Shown here: in pieces, positions 1 through 29,606 of the stretch
How the letters are laid out: every line of letters starts with the position of its first letter
Numbering within the stretch: the first letter of the stretch is position 1
IMG/VR virus record: IMGVR_UViG_3300017724_000017
Coordinates: 1-38,782 of that record
DNA length: 38,782 bases
Strand: one strand, 5' to 3'
DNA from: a virus
Made by a program: the position numbers and the translations under genes
The notes under the pieces: model-generated
Database searches by the model: none
The model's input: the letters and a program-made list of their open reading frames with translations, nothing else
What the model was told of the DNA's origin: nothing

Positions 1-98
1 AGCTACCGCAACCATGCTAGCAACTCAGCTAGTTATGTTTTTGAAAACGCTAGTGGCAGAACAGGTACTCTATATACACTAAATGATTTTCCAATGTG
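1..98. repeat. 98-bp terminal overlap, left copy
   Basis: Bases 1-98 are identical to 38685-38782. The repeat lies inside the fibre gene and keeps its frame. It is best explained as assembly overlap of a circular or circularly permuted molecule. Confidence 0.95.
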
Positions 99-993
99 GC
101 GTGATGGCACTACAAGCAATTCACACAAAGTGTGGACACAAGGAAACGATGGCTCTGGCTCTGGTCTTGATGCTGATACTGTTGATGGGTTTGGTACCTC
201 CACAGGTGAATCAGCCGACACTGTTGTAGTACGAACAAGTAGTGGCTATCTACATGCCCGATACTTCAACGGCACAGGTACATTCGCCATTGCTGGCGCA
301 GCGTCAGGTATGGTTAATTTTACGGGAACTAATGGTTCAGACACATATGGTCGAAGCTATAGTGCTGCTGCTGCGGGACTTCTGATTGGTCAGTCTGGCG
401 GTATGTCTGACATTCGTACTGACCTTGTAGTTCACGGCTCCTACCGCGATCACGGTATGTTTGGTACTTACGATTCCAGCAAGACTGCTCAGATATGGTC
501 GATGGGAACGTCATATCGTAGCCACTCTTCTGGTACTAACTTTGGCAACCTCTACGGACTAGCTTATAAGCACACCAACAATACCACTGGCGGCACAATG
601 GCTGGTGGTCATCAGATGGTTTGGTGTCAGAACGGCACTGGCCATTCGGCAATGGGAACGAACATCTGGACATCAGGCAACGTCACAGCCTATTCAGATA
701 TTAGAGTCAAAAAGAATATTGAACGTATTCCTAATGCGCTTGATAAGGTTTGTCAGCTAAACGGCTACACGTTTGAAAGAACAGACGTTAAGTTTGACAA
801 TGAGGGTTCTCCCACTGTTCCTGTTAAGCAGACGGGGGTTATTGCTCAAGAAGTATTAAAGGTTCTTCCCGAAGCAGTTATGGGTGATGAGGATGGACAC
901 TACTCAGTAGCCTACGGAAACATGGTTGGTCTATTGATAGAGGCAGTTAAGGAACTCAAGGCAGAGATTGACGAGTTGAAAGGAGGTGACTGA
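1..993 (+). CDS. Tail fibre, C-terminal part (Peptidase S74 chaperone domain); gene begins at 37560
   Basis: This is the 3' part of a gene that starts at 37560 and crosses the circular join; frame 1 is open from base 1. The joined protein is 705 residues. The C-terminal ~100 residues match the intramolecular chaperone (Peptidase_S74) domain of trimeric phage fibres and endosialidases: SDIRVKKNIERI, then GVIAQEV and VAYGNMVGLLIEAVKEL. The family's Ser-Lys dyad is visible five residues apart (codons 694-696 and 709-711, Ser607 and Lys612 of the joined protein). In this family the domain drives trimerisation and then cuts itself off just before that Ser, leaving a mature fibre. Upstream is Gly/Ser/Thr-rich beta-type sequence. 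Host-receptor binding is the inferred role. The gene is followed by another tail gene with overlapping TGATG stop/start. Confidence 0.85.
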   Translation, partial: SYRNHASNSASYVFENASGRTGTLYTLNDFPMWRDGTTSNSHKVWTQGNDGSGSGLDADTVDGFGTSTGESADTVVVRTSSGYLHARYFNGTGTFAIAGAASGMVNFTGTNGSDTYGRSYSAAAAGLLIGQSGGMSDIRTDLVVHGSYRDHGMFGTYDSSKTAQIWSMGTSYRSHSSGTNFGNLYGLAYKHTNNTTGGTMAGGHQMVWCQNGTGHSAMGTNIWTSGNVTAYSDIRVKKNIERIPNALDKVCQLNGYTFERTDVKFDNEGSPTVPVKQTGVIAQEVLKVLPEAVMGDEDGHYSVAYGNMVGLLIEAVKELKAEIDELKGGD

Positions 994-1811: not shown

Positions 1812-2810
1812 ATGACTTTACAAACTACTGGTCAAATCAGTATCAATGATATTGGTGACGAGTTTGAAGTTGCCGCAGCTAATCGCTCCTTGGTGACTCT
1901 ATCTACCGCAGGAGGGTTTACTGCACCGCACGGCATCAAAGAATTCTACGGATTCAGCGATACCATACCAGTCAGCGGCATCGCATTTACGGGGTTAAAT
2001 TCTAGCGGAACCACCTTAACCCGACCCTACGACATAAACACTGTGTCTACTTCCGGCAACCCCACGCTAAGGATAAGCTACACAAGGACCGGAACAAGTA
2101 GTACAGCCCACACTGTAGGAATCTTTAAGAATGGCACAAATATAAATAACTTTAACAGTGCCACAAACTATACCAACGGGACCGGTACATTTGATGTGTC
2201 AGTAGTCAACAACGACCAAATACAAGTGAAAGTTACAAACGCTTCAACCGGCACATACCACCAAGCAACTGTCCAGTGGATAAACCTTGACGATAACAAC
2301 ACGGTCCTAGCGACTGACAGTTTCAGTGTCTTTAAATCTTCGGGGAACACTGGCGGTGGCAGCGGCAACTATGGATGCTTCCCCGCAGGAATGATGGTCA
2401 CTATGGCTGACGGCTCAGAAAAAGCCATAGAGACTATATCGGAAGGCGATATGGTTTTAGCCTCTGGTATGCAGTCAGCCGAAGTTCTGGATGTTTGGAC
2501 CATGCCGAAAGAGTCCAGATTGATTTTCAAGATCAACGGCAAGCTCAGGATGACCAAAGATCACCCGATCAAAATCATTGGCCCCACATCATCAACGTGG
2601 GCCGCAATGGACCCAACAGCTGCCAACGAAATTCACCCCGAACTGAATGTTCAGCAGTTGGAGATTGGCCAGACACTGGTCGGTCCTGATGGCTACAGGG
2701 AAGTGGTAGAAGCAATTCAAACCGAAGTCGAAGACAGTGTAGTTTACAACTTGAACGTGTCAGGCGATGACACCTACTTCGTACAGGGTCTGCTTGTACA
2801 CAACAAATAA
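1812..2810 (+). CDS. Tail appendage protein with C-terminal Hint (intein/hedgehog-like) domain
   Basis: 332 residues behind an AAAAGGTGA site. Residues 1-50 are a tail-docking module (TTGQISINDIGDEF ... IKEFYGFS) related to that of the gene at 993. Residues ~55-180 are Thr/Asn-rich beta sequence. After a Gly-rich linker (TGGGSGNYG) a Hint domain begins at Cys189: block A CFPAGMMVTMADGSEKAIE, block B TKDHPI (the TxxH of inteins), block F VVYNLNV...YFVQGLLVHN. His330-Asn331 is the usual intein terminus and only Lys332 follows. There is no homing endonuclease and no C-extein. In this family the Cys makes an N-S acyl shift and the Asn can cyclise. Here it may cleave off, or link the tail domain to a nucleophile. 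The lysis genes follow. Confidence 0.85.
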   Translation: MTLQTTGQISINDIGDEFEVAAANRSLVTLSTAGGFTAPHGIKEFYGFSDTIPVSGIAFTGLNSSGTTLTRPYDINTVSTSGNPTLRISYTRTGTSSTAHTVGIFKNGTNINNFNSATNYTNGTGTFDVSVVNNDQIQVKVTNASTGTYHQATVQWINLDDNNTVLATDSFSVFKSSGNTGGGSGNYGCFPAGMMVTMADGSEKAIETISEGDMVLASGMQSAEVLDVWTMPKESRLIFKINGKLRMTKDHPIKIIGPTSSTWAAMDPTAANEIHPELNVQQLEIGQTLVGPDGYREVVEAIQTEVEDSVVYNLNVSGDDTYFVQGLLVHNK

Positions 2811-4794: not shown

Positions 4795-4832
4795 GAGGAA
4801 AATTAATGCAACGTCCGTTGCTGACCAATGAA

Positions 4833-4875
4833 GGGATTATGAGTCCACTGCTCTAACCAACTGAGCTACAGGCCC
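4833..4875 (-). other. Probable attP: 5' half of a tRNA-Met/Ile2 (CAT) gene
   Basis: On the minus strand these bases read as a tRNA from acceptor 5' strand (GGGCCTG) through a canonical D-arm (GCTCAGTTGGTTAGAGC) and anticodon loop with CAT (complement of 4839-4841), then stop matching. There is no T-arm and no 3' acceptor strand. A partial tRNA of this size in a phage with a tyrosine integrase is typical of an attachment site. GTCCGTTG (4813-4820) and CAACGGAC (4897-4904) flank it as an inverted pair, possible integrase sites. The integrase gene is about 2.1 kb downstream. Confidence 0.75.
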
Positions 4876-6844: not shown

Positions 6845-7013
6845 GCCGGTAATCGAGATCGAACTCGAACCTATAGAAGTTGCCATTCGCAGAGAGCGGC
6901 AGCGGATACAGGACATCGAGTTCGACACTGGGGAAATGCCAAACACTTGGCTAATTGAATTTATGGTCAGCGAACGTGGTCGGGGGATCACTGGCTGGCC
7001 CATTAACTTGTGA
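6822..7013 (+). CDS. Hypothetical early protein, 63 residues
   Basis: Overlaps the end of the previous gene by 23 nt in another frame; ATG 6831 is an alternative start. The sequence has a charged helical look (VIEIELEPIEVAIRRERQRI, then DIEFDTGEMPNTWLIEF). The stop TGA at 7011-7013 is the start of the TGAGGGAAA element for the integrase gene, so the two are probably co-translated. Family unknown. Confidence 0.5.
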   Translation: MTTMIASKPVIEIELEPIEVAIRRERQRIQDIEFDTGEMPNTWLIEFMVSERGRGITGWPINL

Positions 7014-7024
7014 GGGAAAATAAT

Positions 7025-7861
7025 ATGGTTACATTAAAAAAATTCGCGGATGACAATGCTCACCGCATCTGGGAAGGCAAACACTTGACCGACTCAGTTT
7101 CTAAAATCACGCGCCTTTCTGGCTTCAGTAATTTCGGCAACAAAGACATCAACACTTTTGAAGCCGATGACATTTACAACTTTCTGGACCAGCTCAAAGA
7201 TGAAGGGCTGGCCGATGCAACTCTTAATCGCTACACCGCTGCAATCTCATCGCTGTTCAAGTTTGCGGTTGAGAAACGTGTCGTCAAACACGTACCGAAG
7301 GTGCGCTGGAAAAAAGCCAAGAGCAGCCGACCCCGTTACTTCACCACGCAGGAAGTCGATGCGCTGGTCGAACACTTCCGCAGCAGTAAGCATCCGTGGA
7401 TGGCTGACTTCTGTCTGCTGGCTGTAAACACCGGTATGCGTCTAGGCGAAATACTGGCGATCAATAATGATAGCAGCAAGACTTACGGTGAGATATCCAA
7501 GTGCTGCAAATTCATCACGTTGCACGACACCAAGAATGGCGAAGAGCGTTTGGTCCCGCTCAATAAGGATGCCCAGCGTGCACTACAAAACCTGAACAAC
7601 ATGCCGCACTACTACCACAGTCATCGTAAGTTCTACGATGCGTGGGCAGCTGCCAAAGATGAACTGGCGCGGCACGATAAGAACTTTGTTTTCCATGTAC
7701 TCAGACACACTTGTGCTACACGTCTGGCCATGGAGTTCAATGTGGAGCCGATTACCCTAGGTAAAATTCTAGGTCACCGGTCAATGGCGACAACTGCCAA
7801 ATACGTACATGCCCAGCCCAACAGTATTGCTGCGGTCATGGCTAACCTTGAAAAACGATAG
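7025..7861 (+). CDS. int: Tyrosine recombinase / integrase
   Basis: 278 residues; site-specific strand exchange through a Tyr-DNA intermediate. Residues ~1-95 are the helical SAM-like core-binding domain. The catalytic domain carries the full set: Arg139 (NTGMRLGE), Lys170 (TKNGEER), His224-Arg227 (HVLRHT), His251 (LGHRS) and Tyr260 (AKYVHA). The start is ATG 7025 after TGAGGGAAA (7011-7019); the upstream GTG is part of that site. It lies in the early operon upstream of the RNA polymerase gene, as in other integrase-bearing T7-like phages. The likely target is the tRNA-like attP at 4833-4875. No repressor or excisionase is recognised nearby. Confidence 0.95.
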   Translation: MVTLKKFADDNAHRIWEGKHLTDSVSKITRLSGFSNFGNKDINTFEADDIYNFLDQLKDEGLADATLNRYTAAISSLFKFAVEKRVVKHVPKVRWKKAKSSRPRYFTTQEVDALVEHFRSSKHPWMADFCLLAVNTGMRLGEILAINNDSSKTYGEISKCCKFITLHDTKNGEERLVPLNKDAQRALQNLNNMPHYYHSHRKFYDAWAAAKDELARHDKNFVFHVLRHTCATRLAMEFNVEPITLGKILGHRSMATTAKYVHAQPNSIAAVMANLEKR

Positions 7862-8606: not shown

Positions 8607-11090
8607 ATGAATACATCTGGCGATATCGCTACGCAGATACTGCGTGAGCAACGAATGTTTGACCAAGGTAGAGAAAGGTATCTCAACCGACAAGAAGGTA
8701 GCCTGAAGCCTTCTACTCAGAACAACCCCCACCGACTTATAACTGATGCTTTACCTAAAGTTGCTGAAGGTTTGACCGCAGCAATCGAAAGTGAGCAGGA
8801 GAGCAAAGGTCGAGGCAGAAAGTATGCTTGGTATTACGACATTAAGAATCTAGATGTCGATCTACTGGCTTACATTGGTCTGAATACATGTATGGATAGT
8901 GTCTCAGTCAACGGTACTCTCACGTCTACCCTGACCAAGATCGGCAAGCGTGTCGAACTTGAGATATGGGCAGCGGGACTACAAGAGCACGATAAGAAAC
9001 TTGCGTCACGCATAGAGCAAAAAGTGACCAAGGATCACAACGCAGAAGTCTACCGAATCAAGGCGGCTAAGATCATCGCTAAGAAGGCCGGTTACGATGC
9101 GAGTGCTTGGACTGAAGAAAGACGTACTAAGGTAGCAGTACCTATTATGAATGCAGTCTTAGAGCATTCTGGTGTCTTTGAGGTGTGGGAGCAGGAGCGT
9201 GCCAAGAGAACAATCAGGCGCGTAGGTTTAACTCTAGAGGCTAGTACACGTCTTGCAGAGATGGACTTCCATTGCAGCTGGCAGGAGCCTATCTTAGCTC
9301 CACTAATCGTCCCACCAAAGCCGTGGTCTGCCCATAACACTGGGTGCTATTTGGACCCTGTGACAGCGTCTATGGTCCCTCTGGTCAGAGGTGCTAGTGA
9401 CGAGCAAGTGGACATCATCAAACACCAGTTTAAGAAAGGTATACCCCTGTACGTTGAAGCAGTAAATGCGATCCAAGCTACTCCCCTGACTGTCAATACT
9501 TATGTACTCGATGCAGTTCAGTGGTGCTGGCAAGAATCAAAGTCATTTAAAAAGTTTCCCCGCAGAGAGTCTCTGGAGCACATGAAGAAACCAGAGAATT
9601 GGGATGACATGGATCAGTACGAACGTAAAGGATGGAGTCTGGAGGCCAGAGAGGTGCGCGAGAAAAACCGCGAGATCGATGGCAGCAGAGCAACCATGAT
9701 GCAGGACCTTATGACTGCGTCTGAGCTCGCTACTTTTGAAGAGTTCTACCTAGGCTGGAATTTTGATAAGCGAGGTAGAGCATACCCAGTGAGTCACTTC
9801 AGCTATCACCGTGACGACCACATCAAGGCCCTGTTCAATCTGAAGCGTGGCCGCAAGATGGACGAGAGTGCAGTCAACTGGTTAGCAGTTCACGTAGCCA
9901 ACACTGGTGACTTTGGCAAAATCAGTAAGCAGCCACTGGACAGTCGTATTGCATGGGTAGAAGAAAACTCAGAGAAACTGTATCGAGTCGGGCGCGACAT
10001 TGTAGGAACTTTTGAATACTGGTCTTCAGCTGACAAGCCGTTCCAGTTTCTGGCAGCGTGCCATGAGCTGGCAAACTATATCGATGACCCTGAGTATGCC
10101 TGTGCTTTACCTCCGCAACTGGACGGAACCAACTCTGGTGTACAGCACTACAGTGCCGCATCACTCAACCACAGCGATGGTGTCATGGTGAACCTTGTGC
10201 CTAGTGATAAGCCGCAAGATATCTACCAGAGTGTTGCTGATAATGTAGTTTGTAAACTTAATGAATCAAAAGATGAAAAAGCAAAACTGTGGCTGGACTA
10301 TGGCGTATATCGATCAACGGTAAAGAGAAACACCATGACCTATGGATACTCCAGCGGTAAGTTTGGTTTTGCAGAGCAGTTGTACGAAGACATCATGCGA
10401 CCACTGCAAGATGACGTGATGCGTAAAACTTTGAAGCAGCACCCTTTTGGAAAGACTGCCAGAGAGCAGAAACAGGCGTGCATGTTCTTAGCGATGTTGA
10501 ACTACGATGCTGTGCAGTCTGTTATTAATAGTGCTGCCCAAGGCATGGCGTTTTTCCAGAATGTTACTGGTGCTCTGGCACACGAAAATAAAGCAGTGCA
10601 TTTTGAAACACCGGTCGGCTTCCCGATGATCCAGCAATACCATCAGTGGGATATCAAAAAGATAAAAATCTATTTGTATGATCGGGATGCAAAAGTATTG
10701 CACCGGACGCAAATCAGTTTACGCACCAAGCCATCCAAGAAAGTTGATAAGAGAAAAAGTAAAGCAGCCGTGAGTCCGAATGTCATCCATTCGATGGACT
10801 CTGCTCATTTACTTGCGACTGTCTTACTGGCAAAAGATAACGGTGTAAGAGACTTCTTTATGATCCACGACAGTTTCGGAACGATACCGGCAGACACGGA
10901 CGCGATGTATCAATCGGTACGCATGACCTTCATAGACATCTACAAGGATTGGTGTCTTTACGAAAGTTTCTGGAAACAGGCAACGAGTAGATTGTCGTAC
11001 AGCGGCCTTAAACGGTTAGAGAAAAAGATACCGGATAAAGGCAAACTCGACATCGACAAAGTCATGGAGAGCGAATATTGTTTTAGCTAA
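8607..11090 (+). CDS. Single-subunit DNA-directed RNA polymerase, T7 type
   Basis: 827 residues (T7: 883). It transcribes phage genes from short phage-specific promoters. Catalytic residues are all visible: Asp506 (LDGTNSGVQHYSA), Lys573 and Tyr581 in STVKRNTMTYGYSSGKFGF with the T7 spacing of eight, and Asp755 in MIHDSFGTIPAD. The C-terminus ends YCFS where T7 has FAFA, the 'foot' at the active site. The N-terminal promoter-binding region is diverged and shorter. GAGGG lies before ATG 8607. A promoter of the family it probably recognises is just upstream (8553), so autoactivation is likely, with first copies made by host polymerase reading through. The gene stands between a terminator and the replication genes. 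Confidence 0.97.
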   Translation: MNTSGDIATQILREQRMFDQGRERYLNRQEGSLKPSTQNNPHRLITDALPKVAEGLTAAIESEQESKGRGRKYAWYYDIKNLDVDLLAYIGLNTCMDSVSVNGTLTSTLTKIGKRVELEIWAAGLQEHDKKLASRIEQKVTKDHNAEVYRIKAAKIIAKKAGYDASAWTEERRTKVAVPIMNAVLEHSGVFEVWEQERAKRTIRRVGLTLEASTRLAEMDFHCSWQEPILAPLIVPPKPWSAHNTGCYLDPVTASMVPLVRGASDEQVDIIKHQFKKGIPLYVEAVNAIQATPLTVNTYVLDAVQWCWQESKSFKKFPRRESLEHMKKPENWDDMDQYERKGWSLEAREVREKNREIDGSRATMMQDLMTASELATFEEFYLGWNFDKRGRAYPVSHFSYHRDDHIKALFNLKRGRKMDESAVNWLAVHVANTGDFGKISKQPLDSRIAWVEENSEKLYRVGRDIVGTFEYWSSADKPFQFLAACHELANYIDDPEYACALPPQLDGTNSGVQHYSAASLNHSDGVMVNLVPSDKPQDIYQSVADNVVCKLNESKDEKAKLWLDYGVYRSTVKRNTMTYGYSSGKFGFAEQLYEDIMRPLQDDVMRKTLKQHPFGKTAREQKQACMFLAMLNYDAVQSVINSAAQGMAFFQNVTGALAHENKAVHFETPVGFPMIQQYHQWDIKKIKIYLYDRDAKVLHRTQISLRTKPSKKVDKRKSKAAVSPNVIHSMDSAHLLATVLLAKDNGVRDFFMIHDSFGTIPADTDAMYQSVRMTFIDIYKDWCLYESFWKQATSRLSYSGLKRLEKKIPDKGKLDIDKVMESEYCFS

Positions 11091-11482: not shown

Positions 11483-12014
11483 ATTCACCAGCACAAAAGG
11501 CCGCGCACAGTACCCATGGCTCAACAAGCCAGACACTGCGTTCGGTGCTGAACCCAAGTACAAAACCAACCTCATTGTCGAGGACGGTGCTGCACTTGAA
11601 CAGGCATGTCGTGATCTGGCAGCAGCTGAGTTCGGACCCAAAGCTGACAAAGCTAGAATGCCGTTCGATGCCGATCCAGACACCGGTGAAACTATTTTCA
11701 AAGCCAAGAGCAAGTACGCGCCATCTTTTTTTGATGCTACAGGCAATCCGATATCTGGAAAGCAAATACCATCAATCTGGGGCGGCAGTGTGATTCGAGT
11801 CGGTGGATTTATTTCGCCTTACTCAGTATCAGGCAGCGTAGGAGTTTCTCTTCAGCTGACGCGAGTCCAAGTTATCGAGCCAGTATCTTCTGGTGGTGAT
11901 GGCGATGGATTTGAAGCGGTAGAAGGTGGATTCATAGCGGCTGAAGTAACTGAGGAGCAACTCAATGAAGAGCAAGTACTGGCAACGGAGACGGAATCAG
12001 CCGACCGTTTCTAA
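11460..12014 (+). CDS. Single-stranded DNA-binding protein, T7 gp2.5-like
   Basis: 184 residues; coats ssDNA and contacts polymerase and helicase at the replication fork. The body (KGRAQYPWLNKPDT, EPKYKTNLIVED, GKQIPSIWGGSVIRVGGFISPY, VGVSLQLTRVQVI) matches the phage OB-fold SSB family. The C-terminal tail is acidic (EVTEEQLNEEQVLATETESADRF) and ends in Phe, as in T7 gp2.5 where the terminal Phe mediates protein contacts. AAGGAGACAACAA precedes the ATG. The 3' end overlaps endonuclease I by 50 nt. Confidence 0.9.
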   Translation: MAQANRVKFTSTKGRAQYPWLNKPDTAFGAEPKYKTNLIVEDGAALEQACRDLAAAEFGPKADKARMPFDADPDTGETIFKAKSKYAPSFFDATGNPISGKQIPSIWGGSVIRVGGFISPYSVSGSVGVSLQLTRVQVIEPVSSGGDGDGFEAVEGGFIAAEVTEEQLNEEQVLATETESADRF

Positions 12015-23408: not shown

Positions 23409-26400
23409 ATGACTGCACAGGCCCAGTACACTCCCGACCAGATTAAGCAAGCCGCAAGGAATGCTTACGCGAATAAGGACTACGCAGGTGCTCAAAGGCT
23501 CGATGCACTGTACCAAAAGTCTTTGACGATGCAGCCGCAGCAGCAGACTAGACCGGAAGTACCTGAGAGTGAGCGCGACAATGCGTTCCAGTATGGTATT
23601 GACCAGATGCAGTCTCTGACTGGTTCAGCAGTTGAAGGTATCGGTAAATTTGTCGGCAGCGAAGGAATGCAGAAGTACGGACAAAAAGTACAGGCCAAGA
23701 ATGCAGAAGACATGGCCAAAGGCGGCTACCAGTTTAAGTATGATTCTTACAGAGATGCTTTTGAAAAAGACGGTCTTGCCGGTGCTCTGTCACACTCTGG
23801 ATCAGCAGTCGCTGCGGGATTGCCGACTACCGGTGCAACTCTTGTGGGCGGTGCTGCTACTTATGGTGCTGCTGTATTAAGTGCTCCTGCGTGGGTAGTT
23901 GCTGGTCTTGGCGGTCTTACCACTGCTACTGGTGTTGGTCTTGGTATAGGTGAAAACGTACAAGAGCAAAAGGAAAAGCTGGGCGGTGACTTCGATGAAA
24001 ACGTAGCACTTGGTGTCGGTGCGGTTGTGGGTTTATTGGACCGAATAGGTGTCGGCAAAGTATTCAAAACTAAAGAACTAAAGAACATGAGTCCCCAGCA
24101 AATTGCTGATCGACTTAATAGCCAAGGAATGGGCGATAAGGCCAAAGAGTTTCTAAAGGGCATGGGTGTCGAGGCACTCACTGAAGCGACTCAGGAAGGC
24201 GTGCAGATGGCTGCAACGGCTGCCCAAGGCGGTCAGTACACAGGACAAGAAGTTGGTGATCGTTTAGTCGATGCAGGGATAACAGGCGGTCTGACTGCTG
24301 GCACTATCAAAGGAACCACTGGTGCAGTTACCGGTGCAGCCAACATGGTCGGTGGCAATAAACCGGACTTAGATACTCCAGAAGGCCAAGCTAAAGCAAG
24401 TTTTGCACAGCGTCTTCGAGATAAAGCAGAAGCCAACGACTATGATTTAAAAATAGTTGATAGGTCATCCACTGATGGCGCGAGAGCAGCCGTAGATTCT
24501 GTACACAAAGATATGGCTGGCGATTTGAAGCAGCTGTTCAAAGACTTGAAAGAGCGATTGGCTGTTACTGATAGAGATTCTATCGAAGAAGTGGCCGACA
24601 AAGTAATGGCACAAGTAGGCTACGAAAAAGCCAGAAACAAAACAAAAAACAAAGTAGACCAAGAGAATTTTGATGCCATCGAGAAGTTGGTTGGCGATAC
24701 TCAGGAAGGCCAAAGAATATTAGGTTTACTTCGAGAAATGAATGAGATGACCGACATCCACAACAGTGGATACAAGGGCGGTGTCTCAGCCATCACTGAC
24801 CAGTTTGGTCTTTACGGTATAGGTGGCGAAGCTGGTTACGACCAAGGTCGTGCAACAGCAGAATATGTACTGCGACCAATGACATCAATGGTCACTGGTG
24901 TAAGTACCGGTGGTGCATCTACCGCTGCCCAGCTGGGTGTAGTAGGCACTGGTCGAGCTATCGATAAAGTTACTGGTAGACGCAGTAAGGTGCAGCGTTA
25001 CGTTGATCAGAATGCAGATCAGACAGGTTTACCTCCCGCAGCAGGACCCAGCCTGAGAGAATTAAGAAGGCAAGAAATACTGGCTGCCGAAGAGAAGGAA
25101 GAGCAGGATAAGATCGCTCGTCAGGAAATGAACCAAGAAGCATTCGATTCTGGATTGCCCCCAACAGATACTTCACCGCAAGGTAAATTGCAGTCGATAC
25201 TTGGTGTAGACCAAAACACATTGGTCAGCCTTTTAGAATCAATCGTTCAGAATAGAACACGCAACCCATTAATAATAACTGCTGCCAATGACGCATTAAC
25301 CAGTATGCAGACAGGCGGTAGAGTAGAAAACCTTACTGGTCTAGTTCGCGTTCTAAAAGATATGGTCAATCCTGATCCTGATTTCTGGATAGAGCGTCAC
25401 CAGCAGTTACAGGGCGCAGCCAATGCTCAAAAGTCGCAGCGCGAGATTAACTATGAGCGTGGCGTAAACGCCAACCGTGTCTTTGTAGATAAGTTGATGG
25501 ACCAGTTGAACGGAGACACCAGCGTACAACCTTTAGATAAAGCAAAAATACTTGCTGCTCTAGACAATCTAAAAGGTAACTTGGGATCAGACCCAATTGG
25601 TAATCTCAATGCCACGGTACGCCAGCTGGCAGAAGCCGGTGTCGATCAAGAATCATTACAGAATTTCTTTATACCCTATGTCGAGCGAGTGGTTGCCCAG
25701 CAGGAAGCCGCAACCCAGAAAAGACAACTAGATGCAGAAGACGATCTACAAGTACAAGAATCTCAAGCTGCACTGGATGACTCGCGTGAAGTACAACTAG
25801 ACTTTGAGACTGTAGAACAGCGTAAGCAACGTGCAGAAGAGCAAGGTTTTGATACAAGCACTGTTTATTATCACGGTACGTATGCAGATATAAATGATCG
25901 GCAAGCATACGACAGTTTTGAAAATCCAAATAAAATGGGCGGCTTAAATAGAGTTGGTACATGGCTCGATACAAGCCCAGAAAATTACTCATACCTAGAC
26001 GGTAGAGCAAACGATACTGTTTACCCTGTCTACATAAGGAAAGGAAAAGCGTGGAACATAGAAGCGCGTGTTGCAGACAGTAGCGACCCTTTCAACCAGC
26101 TAGAAAAACAAATAGCTGACGATATGGATATGGACGCAGAGCCATGGATACAGCCAACCTCTGAAAACAACGCAAAAATCGATGAGTGGGCCGATAAATT
26201 AAAAGGTATGGGATACACCCACATAAACTTAATTGATACAAAAATTGATGAAATGCTTACAGACGGCAAACCTAGAACCTTTACAATTGTTTTGGACCCA
26301 TCAAATATACGCTCAGTAAACGCTCAGTTTGACCCTGCAAAAACAGACTCTGCGAACCTGTCTGACTCTCGAAACGTCACTATTGACATTAATGAAGTAT

Positions 26401-29400
26401 CGCAGCCAGCTAATCCTGACTCTGGAAAAACACAAAGAGGTAACACTCTAGAAACTGCCAGAAAGTCACTCGCGTATCTAAACTCTAGAAATCCAGACGG
26501 TGACAAAACTTTAGATTTCGGTGCAGGGTACGGAACCAATGCTGAATCACTGGGAATAGAGCAGACATACGAGCCATTCGCTGATGGCTGGCAGCCTACT
26601 TACAACGATCCCAACGCAATACCCAGCAATACATTCGACAAGATAATCAGCACCAACGTGATGAATGTAATACGTCCTGCAGAACGGGCAGAATCTATCT
26701 ACACATTAGGCAGAGCACTAAAAGTTGGCGGTGAAGCTGTGATACAAGTGCGGGATAACAACGATGTCAGCAGCCTATCAAAAAGCAAAAAAGCTGTGGC
26801 TCAGAGTGAGCCATCTTCGTTTGTTACTGGCGAAAACACATACCAAAAAGGTTTCACTCCAGATGAATTATTGGCTGAAGTTCAAGATGTTCTTGGTCCA
26901 AACTTTACTGTAGAAAAGATACCAGCTGCTCTTAAAATCAACGGAACAAAAGTTCTAGTTAAAAAAGTTGCAGATACTCAGCAGCAGTTTGATAACTCAG
27001 CGCAGCCAGATGCCATCAGTTTAGACTTAGGCGACATGGGTTCAAATCCGATGAGGGTTTCCCCCAGTTACCCACAGGGCAAAAAAATACAGTTAGACCC
27101 ACTGACACAGAACCTACAGATAGGGTTGGAATCAATAAAAGCCAATCCAGAAATTGTTGGCAAACATGCAGTTGCTCTCAGACAATACATGCCGCTCGAT
27201 GACACTTCCAGTAGTGATCTTGATTTCCTAGAACAAGCAATTGAGTTTGTGAAAGGTAACCTACTTTCACTATATGATTCTGTCAGCCCAGAGTACCGTG
27301 AGCGTGCGAAGCTATGGTATGTCGGTGCGAATAAATTAGCGCAGCAAGCTGCGGAACAATACAACTTACCACTAGAGTCGGTTGCTGGTGTTTTTGCAGC
27401 ACTGTCCCCGCAACAAGACTGGTATGTGAACTACGACATCGGTATGCGTGCCATAGATATCTACTTTAACCAACAAGACACTGTGTTTGATGAAACTCTG
27501 CACAAGAACTTCAGGACGTGGATAAACAGGAAGCATAAATCAGGTAAGGACAAAGGTAAGTTTGAGAGAGATACCAAGGCCAGAAAAAACTTTAATGCTA
27601 ATGCTGACGAAATGCTTGGGAAACCTTTCAAGGACCTCACAAGGATTCAACAAGCCTACTACGTTCGGTTTTTTGATGAAGCTAATTTTGAAGAGCGTGG
27701 ACACAAAGTTATTACACCAGAAGGTGGTTTCTCAGGATGGGCCTCTAAGCAGGACGGAAACAAAATAACCAAGAAGTGGAACTCTTTCCCACCGATTGAA
27801 AAAGCATTGGAAATGCTACAAGACCCATCTAAAGAAAACCTACATGTGCAGCTGGGCAACATGCACAAAGTAAGAAGTTTCTACAACAATATCTTGGACC
27901 CCTTTGCTGCCGAAGGCGATGTGACAATCGATACTCATGCAGTTGCAGCGGGACTTTTGCGTCCACTGGCTGGCTCTCACAAAGAAGTGAAAGATAACTT
28001 CGGCTCTGCTGGCTCCAGTAAAGTAGCGGGAGTTTTTGGATCATACGGTGTATATGCGGAAGCATACCGAAGAGCGGCAGCGGAAGCTGGTGTATTGCCA
28101 CGAGAAATGCAGTCGATCACTTGGGAAGCCGTTCGTGGCCTGTTCCCCAAAACAGCGAAAGGCAAAAAGCAGCAAGCAAAATTTAAAACCATCTGGAGTG
28201 ATTACAAAAATGGTAAAATATCACTCAGTGAAGCAAGAGGAAAAGTTTATGAAACAGCAGGGAATATTAGACCAGCCCAGTGGGAAAACGACAGACGGAA
28301 CTTTGGATTCAATCCTTCGCCACGGCCAGAAACCAACGCAAGCATTGTACCTCGCCTTAGCGCATCCAGAGGGGATGGACGCAGAAGCGGAAGCGATGCT
28401 ACCGGAGTTCTTCCACAGCCTACCCAAGAAGTAAACCAAGGCCCGATCCTCGAAGATCAGCAGGAGATCGACTATACGGACATAATGAAGTTCGTAAAGC
28501 CTACTCCTAAGCAGATCAAAGATAACCTTCCAGAAGCCGAAGCTATTGTTGATGGTGTCGTAAACATCGGTAAGAAAGGCACACGCTTTGAAAACGGTGT
28601 CAGCACCATAGAAGATATGCTTAAAATTGCCGACCTGATGGACATCACTGTCCACATGTATGACGATGCCGAAACTTACTATAAAGAAAGTGACGACATT
28701 CAGAAAAACACATCTGGCCGCCACTCAGACACAGGACCACAAACCAGTGAAATATGGGTTCAAGGCCCTGAGATACAAGGCGAACTTGAAGCACTCACAT
28801 CATTGGTCCATGAGTCAATGCACAGTGCAGAAAAACGTCCCCCACCAGAATCTGAAGAATTAATCGCTTCAAATATTACCGGTGCATCACCATCTCTCCT
28901 AAGAGCACAGTACTCACATAGAGGTGCGGGTGAAGGCAGTGCTTCATTCAGGGCTGGCAGCTTACGACAGAAACTTGGCGAAGTGGTCTTTGCAGCTCAA
29001 GAATATAAAAATAAAAATAGTGGCTTATCAGCGGCAGGGTATGGCGACAAGCTAGTCCATGGAAATGTCTATGACGGCAGAGAATTAAATATCACTTATA
29101 AACAAGCTGCAAAAATAAAAAGAGAGATCGAGAAGTTACAGGTCATGGAGGTTTCTCTACCCAACCGACCTGAACTTGGCTCTACGACTCTGAGAACAAC
29201 AGAAGACCGAATGTTGATGAAGACAATCAAGCGGTCTTTTGAACAGTTCGGTAACGGTGACCCAGACAACATAACTGAGAACGATATATCTACCTACAGA
29301 GAAATGTTTGGTAAGCAGATAAAATCAGCGTTACGTCCATACAGGCGTTACACCAGAGAAGATGCTGAGTTCGCTGTGGACCCACTCATCCTTTACTTTA

Positions 29401-29606
29401 TCGATCCTAAGACAATGAAAAAGGTCGCACCGGAGACTGCTAAGTTTATCCGTGATCACTTTAATCCAACAAAAATACCTTTGAAGTTTCACGCTCACCC
29501 AATGGTGGCCATCATGGCAATACTTTTGGCCGGTTACCAAGGTGACGAAGATGAGGAAATGGAGCAAGGTGTATTGTCCCCACAACCTGCACTGTTGAGT
29601 GTATAG
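23409..29606 (+). CDS. Giant ejected polyvalent protein: ART, methyltransferase, glycosylase-like and metalloprotease domains
   Basis: 2065 residues, about 16% of the genome, where T7 has gp16. In order: helical N-terminus; hydrophobic Gly/Ala helices at ~132-180 and Gly-rich helices ~254-316 (membrane insertion); helical linkers to ~800; an ADP-ribosyltransferase-like domain ~810-975 (YYHGT at 820-824, GTWLDTSPENYSY, SNIRSVNAQFDP); a class I methyltransferase-like domain ~1008-1190 (LDFGAGYGTN for SAM, then FDKIISTNVMNVI); a region ~1224-1632 with SVAGVFAALSPQQDW and GDVTIDTHAVAAGLL, faintly like HhH DNA glycosylases; a zinc-protease motif HESMH at 1801-1805; a hydrophobic segment near the C-terminus. 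This matches 'polyvalent proteins', multi-effector proteins delivered with DNA. I infer it is packed in the virion and ejected. Confidence 0.78.
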   Translation: MTAQAQYTPDQIKQAARNAYANKDYAGAQRLDALYQKSLTMQPQQQTRPEVPESERDNAFQYGIDQMQSLTGSAVEGIGKFVGSEGMQKYGQKVQAKNAEDMAKGGYQFKYDSYRDAFEKDGLAGALSHSGSAVAAGLPTTGATLVGGAATYGAAVLSAPAWVVAGLGGLTTATGVGLGIGENVQEQKEKLGGDFDENVALGVGAVVGLLDRIGVGKVFKTKELKNMSPQQIADRLNSQGMGDKAKEFLKGMGVEALTEATQEGVQMAATAAQGGQYTGQEVGDRLVDAGITGGLTAGTIKGTTGAVTGAANMVGGNKPDLDTPEGQAKASFAQRLRDKAEANDYDLKIVDRSSTDGARAAVDSVHKDMAGDLKQLFKDLKERLAVTDRDSIEEVADKVMAQVGYEKARNKTKNKVDQENFDAIEKLVGDTQEGQRILGLLREMNEMTDIHNSGYKGGVSAITDQFGLYGIGGEAGYDQGRATAEYVLRPMTSMVTGVSTGGASTAAQLGVVGTGRAIDKVTGRRSKVQRYVDQNADQTGLPPAAGPSLRELRRQEILAAEEKEEQDKIARQEMNQEAFDSGLPPTDTSPQGKLQSILGVDQNTLVSLLESIVQNRTRNPLIITAANDALTSMQTGGRVENLTGLVRVLKDMVNPDPDFWIERHQQLQGAANAQKSQREINYERGVNANRVFVDKLMDQLNGDTSVQPLDKAKILAALDNLKGNLGSDPIGNLNATVRQLAEAGVDQESLQNFFIPYVERVVAQQEAATQKRQLDAEDDLQVQESQAALDDSREVQLDFETVEQRKQRAEEQGFDTSTVYYHGTYADINDRQAYDSFENPNKMGGLNRVGTWLDTSPENYSYLDGRANDTVYPVYIRKGKAWNIEARVADSSDPFNQLEKQIADDMDMDAEPWIQPTSENNAKIDEWADKLKGMGYTHINLIDTKIDEMLTDGKPRTFTIVLDPSNIRSVNAQFDPAKTDSANLSDSRNVTIDINEVSQPANPDSGKTQRGNTLETARKSLAYLNSRNPDGDKTLDFGAGYGTNAESLGIEQTYEPFADGWQPTYNDPNAIPSNTFDKIISTNVMNVIRPAERAESIYTLGRALKVGGEAVIQVRDNNDVSSLSKSKKAVAQSEPSSFVTGENTYQKGFTPDELLAEVQDVLGPNFTVEKIPAALKINGTKVLVKKVADTQQQFDNSAQPDAISLDLGDMGSNPMRVSPSYPQGKKIQLDPLTQNLQIGLESIKANPEIVGKHAVALRQYMPLDDTSSSDLDFLEQAIEFVKGNLLSLYDSVSPEYRERAKLWYVGANKLAQQAAEQYNLPLESVAGVFAALSPQQDWYVNYDIGMRAIDIYFNQQDTVFDETLHKNFRTWINRKHKSGKDKGKFERDTKARKNFNANADEMLGKPFKDLTRIQQAYYVRFFDEANFEERGHKVITPEGGFSGWASKQDGNKITKKWNSFPPIEKALEMLQDPSKENLHVQLGNMHKVRSFYNNILDPFAAEGDVTIDTHAVAAGLLRPLAGSHKEVKDNFGSAGSSKVAGVFGSYGVYAEAYRRAAAEAGVLPREMQSITWEAVRGLFPKTAKGKKQQAKFKTIWSDYKNGKISLSEARGKVYETAGNIRPAQWENDRRNFGFNPSPRPETNASIVPRLSASRGDGRRSGSDATGVLPQPTQEVNQGPILEDQQEIDYTDIMKFVKPTPKQIKDNLPEAEAIVDGVVNIGKKGTRFENGVSTIEDMLKIADLMDITVHMYDDAETYYKESDDIQKNTSGRHSDTGPQTSEIWVQGPEIQGELEALTSLVHESMHSAEKRPPPESEELIASNITGASPSLLRAQYSHRGAGEGSASFRAGSLRQKLGEVVFAAQEYKNKNSGLSAAGYGDKLVHGNVYDGRELNITYKQAAKIKREIEKLQVMEVSLPNRPELGSTTLRTTEDRMLMKTIKRSFEQFGNGDPDNITENDISTYREMFGKQIKSALRPYRRYTREDAEFAVDPLILYFIDPKTMKKVAPETAKFIRDHFNPTKIPLKFHAHPMVAIMAILLAGYQGDEDEEMEQGVLSPQPALLSV

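Follow-up and report, generated by a model that had tools for sequence, protein, structure and literature searches.

The C-terminal Hint domain of a tail-like protein of a marine phage finishes with His-Asn, one lysine and a stop codon, and comparison with other Hint sequences indicates that this terminal lysine is conserved far beyond the phage in question, in many unrelated viral structural proteins. The reading preferred here, advanced tentatively, is that the domain is a BIL-like self-processing Hint that would mature the tail protein, with the lysine (Lys332, at the +1 position) as internal acceptor or assistant. The stretch of DNA analysed, here called the window, is the 38,782-nucleotide IMG/VR virus record IMGVR_UViG_3300017724_000017; features of the gene, and of three comparable fusions on other contigs, are collected in Table 1.

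Table 1. Features of the Hint gene in the window and of tail assembly protein I fusions elsewhere
Feature	Position	Strand	Remarks and basis
Whole gene, 332 aa	1812-2810	+	ATG to TAA; tail-like domain, Gly-rich linker, C-terminal Hint domain, Lys, stop
N-terminal part, residues 1-175	1812..2336	+	N-terminal motif and predicted beta-sandwich; exchangeable
Gly-rich flexible linker, residues 176-188	2337..2375	+	Last residue Gly188 (-1 residue); sequence; low model confidence at 177-186
Hint domain, Cys189-Asn331, 143 aa	2376..2804	+	Pfam, PDB profile, fold
Block A, CFPAGM	2376..2393	+	Cys189 (codon 2376-2378) is the predicted N-S acyl shift nucleophile; Cys1/Phe2 conservation
Block B, Thr248-Lys-Asp-His251 (Thr248-x-x-His251)	2553..2564	+	Thr/Ser and His conservation
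Block G, His330-Asn331	2799..2804	+	Predicted C-terminal cleavage residue; conservation
Lys332, +1 residue and final residue, then stop	2805..2807	+	Conserved Lys
Tail assembly protein I with K-ended Hint, L029	2282-3457		
Tail assembly protein I with K-ended Hint, L048	1566-2696	-	
Tail assembly protein I with K-ended Hint, L246	7367-8527		

Layout of the protein and identity of its C-terminal domain

The first 50 residues of the protein are a short motif (SGQISINDI...EFYG) which, compared by eye, is like the start of the neighbouring ORF at 993-1577, and residues from about 68 to 175 are predicted to form a beta-sandwich. Family profile searches gave the N-terminal domain no confident match to any tail family, and its fold matches are weak (best Z 6.1; LecB-type lectins about 5.1). 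A lectin-like or other identity was dropped, as a best beta-sandwich match of Z 6.1 is not interpretable. The linker, SSGNTGGGSGNYG, lies immediately upstream of Cys189, and the 143 residues from there to Asn331 lack a homing endonuclease.

A first-pass annotation made from the sequence had claimed a mini-Hint domain from Cys189 to Asn331 (CFPAGM, TKDH, HN), preceded by a glycine-rich linker and followed by Lys332 as the last residue, and this is borne out by the ORF, by Pfam and by the fold. The Pfam matches are to Vint (35.4 bits against a cut-off of 27, residues 188-257) and PT-HINT (32.3 bits against 27.7, residues 279-331). In an AlphaFold2 model built on an alignment of 21 Hint-bearing proteins, confidence is high in the Hint region (10-residue block means of 77-95 over residues 191-330), and model residues 184-332 align with many Hint structures at Z 13-21.5. 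The best PDB fold match is Tetrahymena BIL2 (Z 21.5, rmsd 2.1 A over 139 residues), the next-best other family reaching 18.0; below BIL2 come inteins, CthBIL4 (Z 17.6) and hedgehog (Z 17.0). BIL2 is also the top PDB match both by single sequence (1.9e-3) and by profile (4.2e-12), and the two best distinct profile matches are BIL2 and CthBIL4 (6.9e-12), the comparison being with solved structures and not with a curated A-type profile. A chance match or a wrong reading frame is ruled out by the strong profile, the fold and the relatives.

The features that mark inteins at the N-terminal side and at the end of the domain are present: Cys or Ser at position 1 (Cys189), Thr-x-x-His (Thr248-His251) and a terminal His-Asn (His330-Asn331). 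Inteins further have a C-extein with Cys, Ser or Thr as its +1 residue, whereas here +1 is Lys332 and then comes the stop. Mini-inteins (gp41-1, Ssp DnaB) share the fold (Z 17-18) and blocks A, B, F and G, but differ in just these respects, having the +1 nucleophile and a second extein of more than one residue. The hedgehog C-terminal Hint (PDB 1AT0) likewise shares the fold, its C-terminal position, Cys1 and block B. However, hedgehog Hints have a sterol-recognition region and do not end in His-Asn, while the window protein has His330-Asn331, finishes at Lys332 and has no further domain; the hedgehog likeness suggested in the first-pass annotation is accordingly a poor fit. A-type BIL domains are defined by a His-Asn end with no required C/S/T at +1 (PMC9185962, PMC7765530), and that is how the window domain ends. 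An A-type BIL such as C. thermocellum BIL4 (PDB 2LWY) shares with it Cys1, the His-Asn end, the absence of C/S/T at +1 and a variable-protein setting, but the known A-type BILs are described in bacterial proteins with C-terminal flanks, and the window Hint has none beyond Lys332. On sequence and modelled fold the nearest known domains thus appear to be BIL domains, not hedgehog, and the domain is best called BIL-like.

The nearest solved relative by both sequence and fold, BIL2 of the Tetrahymena BUBL1 polyubiquitin locus (PDB 6Y75, 6TMM), is reported to join its N-terminal partner to the epsilon-amine of a lysine through an isopeptide bond, and so to conjugate that partner to other proteins (PMC8616854). 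It differs in being eukaryotic and flanked on both sides by ubiquitin-like domains, with the reactive lysine in the following ubl5 domain, whereas in the window a single lysine ends the protein. Alignment of the probe to BIL2 did not extend to a lysine match at the BIL2 +1 position. A 'Hint domain containing protein' of uncultured Caudovirales phages (UniProt A0A6J5KSY2) is of similar size and fold at 27% identity; it is annotated by domain alone, with no described function or +1 feature. A fixed +1 lysine with the protein ending there is absent from the A-type BIL features given in the reviews consulted, and the +1 lysine feature was not found in the open-licence literature searched. Searches of cultured phages by tblastn, using three Hint queries and a 22-residue C-terminal probe, found no K-ended Hint and matched inteins in helicases and methylases.

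Conservation of the +1 lysine

An IMG/VR scan with the pattern Y.V.G..VHN-x-stop, in which x was unconstrained, gave 37 records, one of which was already known (L003) and three of which were chance matches (L047, L050, L052). In all 33 of the remaining Hint ORFs x is lysine, encoded by AAA in 15 and AAG in 18, against a background of 7.5% for lysine as the last residue of other long ORFs; the codon split and the background rule out nucleotide context or a general C-terminal bias as its source. Scans for VHN-stop found no real Hint ending directly at HN, and a VHN-xx-stop scan yielded KD, KK and one partial VK. With the downstream sequence left unconstrained, an F/G-block scan returned at least 99 distinct domains, having at +1 Cys in at least 85, Ser in at least 4, Gly in at least 3 and Lys in at least 7, and among the matches listed all of the lysine ones end at the lysine. 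A scan with the block-B pattern HP.LT..GWK, which is blind to the C-terminus, found at +1 either C/S/T or else K (at least about 51) or R (at least 4) among the matches listed, one regex artefact aside. Pattern scans sample only Hints with the given motifs, IMG/VR contains near-duplicates, and for some cellular inteins an HN inside block F made the regex read 'F' or 'A' at +1, for which reason a profile-based count was used instead. Made with the +1 column removed from the profile, it gives for complete viral mini-Hints with HN a +1 residue of K in 61, R in 6, C in 7, G in 3, T in 1 and F in 1.

After removal of redundancy at 70%, terminal Hints (those ending no more than 3 residues past HN) have lysine in 25 of 26 cases and threonine in the other, counts that are not independent given shared ancestry (17 terminal K Hints fall in one clade). 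The non-redundant Hints with a longer flank are more varied at +1 (K 15, C 7, R 7, S 2, V 2, G 2, F 1). Within the K/R type, arginine is at +1 in 7 of 22 internal Hints and in none of 25 terminal ones (Fisher p 0.003, indicative only, as the sequences are related). In a quick tree the K/R label is strongly clustered, with 9 changes compared to 16.7 for shuffled labels, and the window Hint belongs to a well supported group in which 17 of the 18 Hints are K-ended.

All 47 non-redundant K/R-type Hints have Cys1 and Phe2, and all 47 have the Thr/Ser and the His of block B; they were selected on HN and on K/R. Across Hints with about 28-39% identity to that of the window the catalytic residues for both ends are kept, and the class retains Cys1, Thr/Ser-x-x-His, Pro and His-Asn. 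Where HN has been lost, K/R at +1 has gone too: L012, of the same architecture as the window protein, keeps Cys1 and the block-B His and ends GVLVY, L376 has HGV, and L408 has KGF and KPF. Such joint loss is expected if His-Asn and the lysine act in one reaction.

Close relatives and selection

The same protein is present in five near relatives among IMG/VR contigs, and all five end LLVHNK-stop. The next gene, for a small membrane protein, is conserved in the relatives. That the domain is a true intein severed from its C-extein is not borne out, for relatives stop at the same place with the next gene conserved behind. Relative to the window protein, L005 is 41% identical in the N-terminal part and 92% in the Hint. 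For L001 the dS is 0.047 in the N-terminal part and 0.40 in the Hint, from which it follows that the two parts recombined at the linker; the halves of the gene on either side of it have different histories. Within the Hint region dN/dS is about 0.1, pointing to purifying selection on the Hint.

Other proteins with K/R Hints

Lambda-type tail assembly protein I carries a fused K-ended Hint in L029 and L048 (phrog_32, 1.5e-37) and, judged by sequence, in L246; other K-ended Hints are fused to another tail protein in L278 (phrog_2048, 7.9e-50) and to several uncharacterised families. The window protein itself is encoded close to an S74 tail fibre and lysis genes. A ubiquitin-like domain has been described in lambda-type tail assembly protein I, whose fusion to a K-ended Hint recalls the pairing of ubiquitin-like and BIL domains in Tetrahymena BUBL genes.

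T4-like phages have internal K/R Hints in VrlC/DUF4815 proteins of the baseplate region, directly ahead of a DP(L/I)xQTF motif. One example, in a T4-like virus (L214:3426-9275), is a Hint with Arg at +1 inserted before the DPLxQTF motif; the corresponding protein of Sinorhizobium phage phiM7 and Pelagibacter phage Mosig (L412, L413) continues without a Hint, and this natural with/without pair could serve for splicing tests. Tandem Hints in one viral protein are seen in L041, L180, L196, L226, L209, L260 and L263, and the first three of these have R where the first Hint is joined to the next and K at the terminus. In some, only a few residues separate the +1 position of one Hint from Cys1 of the next (HNRFIPSCCF, L041). 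In L042 (G006) adjacent tail-like genes, at 8976-10055 and the next (Hint G006 11494-11868), both have Hints ending VHNK. Long viral proteins in L086, L145 and L155 have an internal Hint with Gly at +1 (VHNGGGGKGGG).

The strict K-ended pattern had no match in 84,980 genomes. A looser genome scan had cellular K+1 Hints, one of them K-ended (L311), among the matches listed, so that the class is not exclusively viral; the cellular K/R+1 Hints are in secreted (bacterial) and pilin-like proteins among the matches listed. Two such pilin-like proteins, with prepilin-type N-termini and K+1 Hints near their C-termini, are in one Bacteriovoracaceae genome (L419 and L423, G001).

A possible mechanism and its alternatives

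In intein chemistry Cys1 and block B form a thioester, and the terminal His-Asn cuts after the Asn. By the conserved Cys189 and Thr248-x-x-His251, the Gly188-Cys189 bond would become a thioester. The tail domain could then pass to the side-chain amine of Lys332, which is still attached beside Asn331 in the active site, or the lysine could promote its release. Finally, as His330-Asn331 suggests, Asn331 would cyclise, the Asn331-Lys332 bond would be cut and the Hint domain would leave. The product would be a tail domain freed from the Hint, its last residue either Gly188 or a single lysine joined to Gly188. An acyl-accepting side chain on a one-residue C-extein would let the protein finish with no outside nucleophile.

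The steps are not all equally secure. Self-cleavage from the tail domain, which had been foreseen from the sequence alone, holds up as the most reasonable expectation: apart from C/S/T at +1 the intein catalytic blocks are kept, and autoprocessing at Gly188-Cys189 is judged very probable. That Lys332 takes a direct chemical part as acceptor is put forward with reserve, at rather below even chances. Lysine and threonine can accept an acyl group and arginine hardly can, which fits the terminal counts of 25 Lys, 1 Thr and 0 Arg. On the same side are the isopeptide bond reported for BIL2 and, by the title of a work cited in PMC9185962, ligation by BIL4 with no nucleophilic side chain. That the wider family does not need the lysine amine is shown by 7 of 22 internal members, which have Arg, and by a few others, which have Val, Gly, Phe or Asn; a tail domain would also gain nothing obvious from one added lysine; by analogy, too, the reactive lysine of BIL2, described as being in the flanking ubl5 and not at +1, would argue against an acceptor role. 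The first-pass annotation had held that there is no C-extein and that two exteins could not be spliced. The part of this that stands is that there is no C/S/T at +1 and nothing past Lys332; however, the lysine does not look like a leftover, and since all but one of 26 terminal Hints have it, splicing onto an extein of one residue is conceivable. A more specific version, that in viral Hints a +1 lysine in place of the intein nucleophile forms an isopeptide to the preceding tail domain, leaving a one-lysine cap or, should the lysine come from a neighbouring subunit, a cross-link between tail subunits before the Hint is shed, is considered unlikely.

Plain double cleavage, as in A-type BILs, is nearly as likely as the lysine acting as acceptor. 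Here both ends would be cleaved hydrolytically, leaving a free Gly188, and the basic +1 residue would speed Asn cyclisation or hold the C-terminus. K/R would be accounted for if charge influenced Asn cyclisation, and the replacement of Lys by Arg in internal members and the presence of K/R+1 in bacterial secreted proteins both suggest that charge, not a nucleophile, is what matters. Cleavage is known from BIL domains that have no C/S/T at +1 (PMC5874633, PMC7765530). What sits badly with charge as the only requirement is that arginine is confined to internal members and that the sole terminal exception is Thr.

Capture of the thioester by an outside nucleophile (a virion protein, or an amine of peptidoglycan or LPS), as in hedgehog proteins, would attach the tail domain covalently, and attachment of the tail tip to a host molecule is no more than possible. 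The residues for the N-terminal chemistry are intact, they persist in L012 and others that have lost HN and Lys, and the conjugation reported for BIL2 (PMC8616854) is of this kind. Yet no partner domain, sterol-recognition region or acceptor is in view, and the window protein retains the terminal HN that hedgehog Hints do not have, so that such transfer is improbable. Still less probable is a folded end domain that does not cleave and is adhesive or aids folding like the S74 chaperone of the neighbouring fibre: the position is typical of C-terminal chaperones and the adjacent tail-fibre gene has Peptidase_S74, but Cys1, Thr/Ser-x-x-His, His-Asn and Lys are strict at low identity, as for catalysis and not a surface function.

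Gene neighbourhood

The gene lies between a Peptidase_S74 tail fibre gene (window 1-993, +), three genes upstream, and those for phage lysozyme and holin. Peptidase_S74, a self-cleaving chaperone, is at the C-terminus of the fibre; two nearby tail genes hence have C-terminal self-processing modules, of unrelated types. The phage has genes for an integrase, for capsid and adaptor proteins of the SU10 type, for a T7-like RNA polymerase and for a DNA polymerase of family A. At window 4821-4871 (-) there is a partial sequence resembling a tRNA, its anticodon CAT; it matches Rfam tRNA at 17.8 bits, below the gathering score, and ARAGORN found no tRNA there; the integrase gene (7010-7861, +) is about 2 kb beyond. 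The partial sequence is likely an attP through which the phage would integrate into a tRNA gene of its host. A 2065-residue protein (23409-29606, +), otherwise uncharacterised, has a DUF7178 match (6.6e-25) and is possibly a large virion protein.

Significance

The comparisons suggest that phage tails are finished with the help of a self-cleaving, possibly lysine-capping, type of domain that had gone unrecognised. Metagenome annotation at present gives such domains no more than the label 'Hint domain containing protein', and K/R as opposed to C/S/T at +1 is a simple rule for telling them from true inteins. The protein is small and expressible, and the purpose of BIL domains can be tested on it directly. 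If the lysine takes part in the chemistry, this would be a naturally evolved, energy-free trimming or covalent modification of phage tail proteins, and compact domains for adding a lysine or an isopeptide bond to a protein C-terminus would be readily at hand. If the reading is true, intein-like domains would be in regular use for virion assembly, beyond their existence as selfish inserts.
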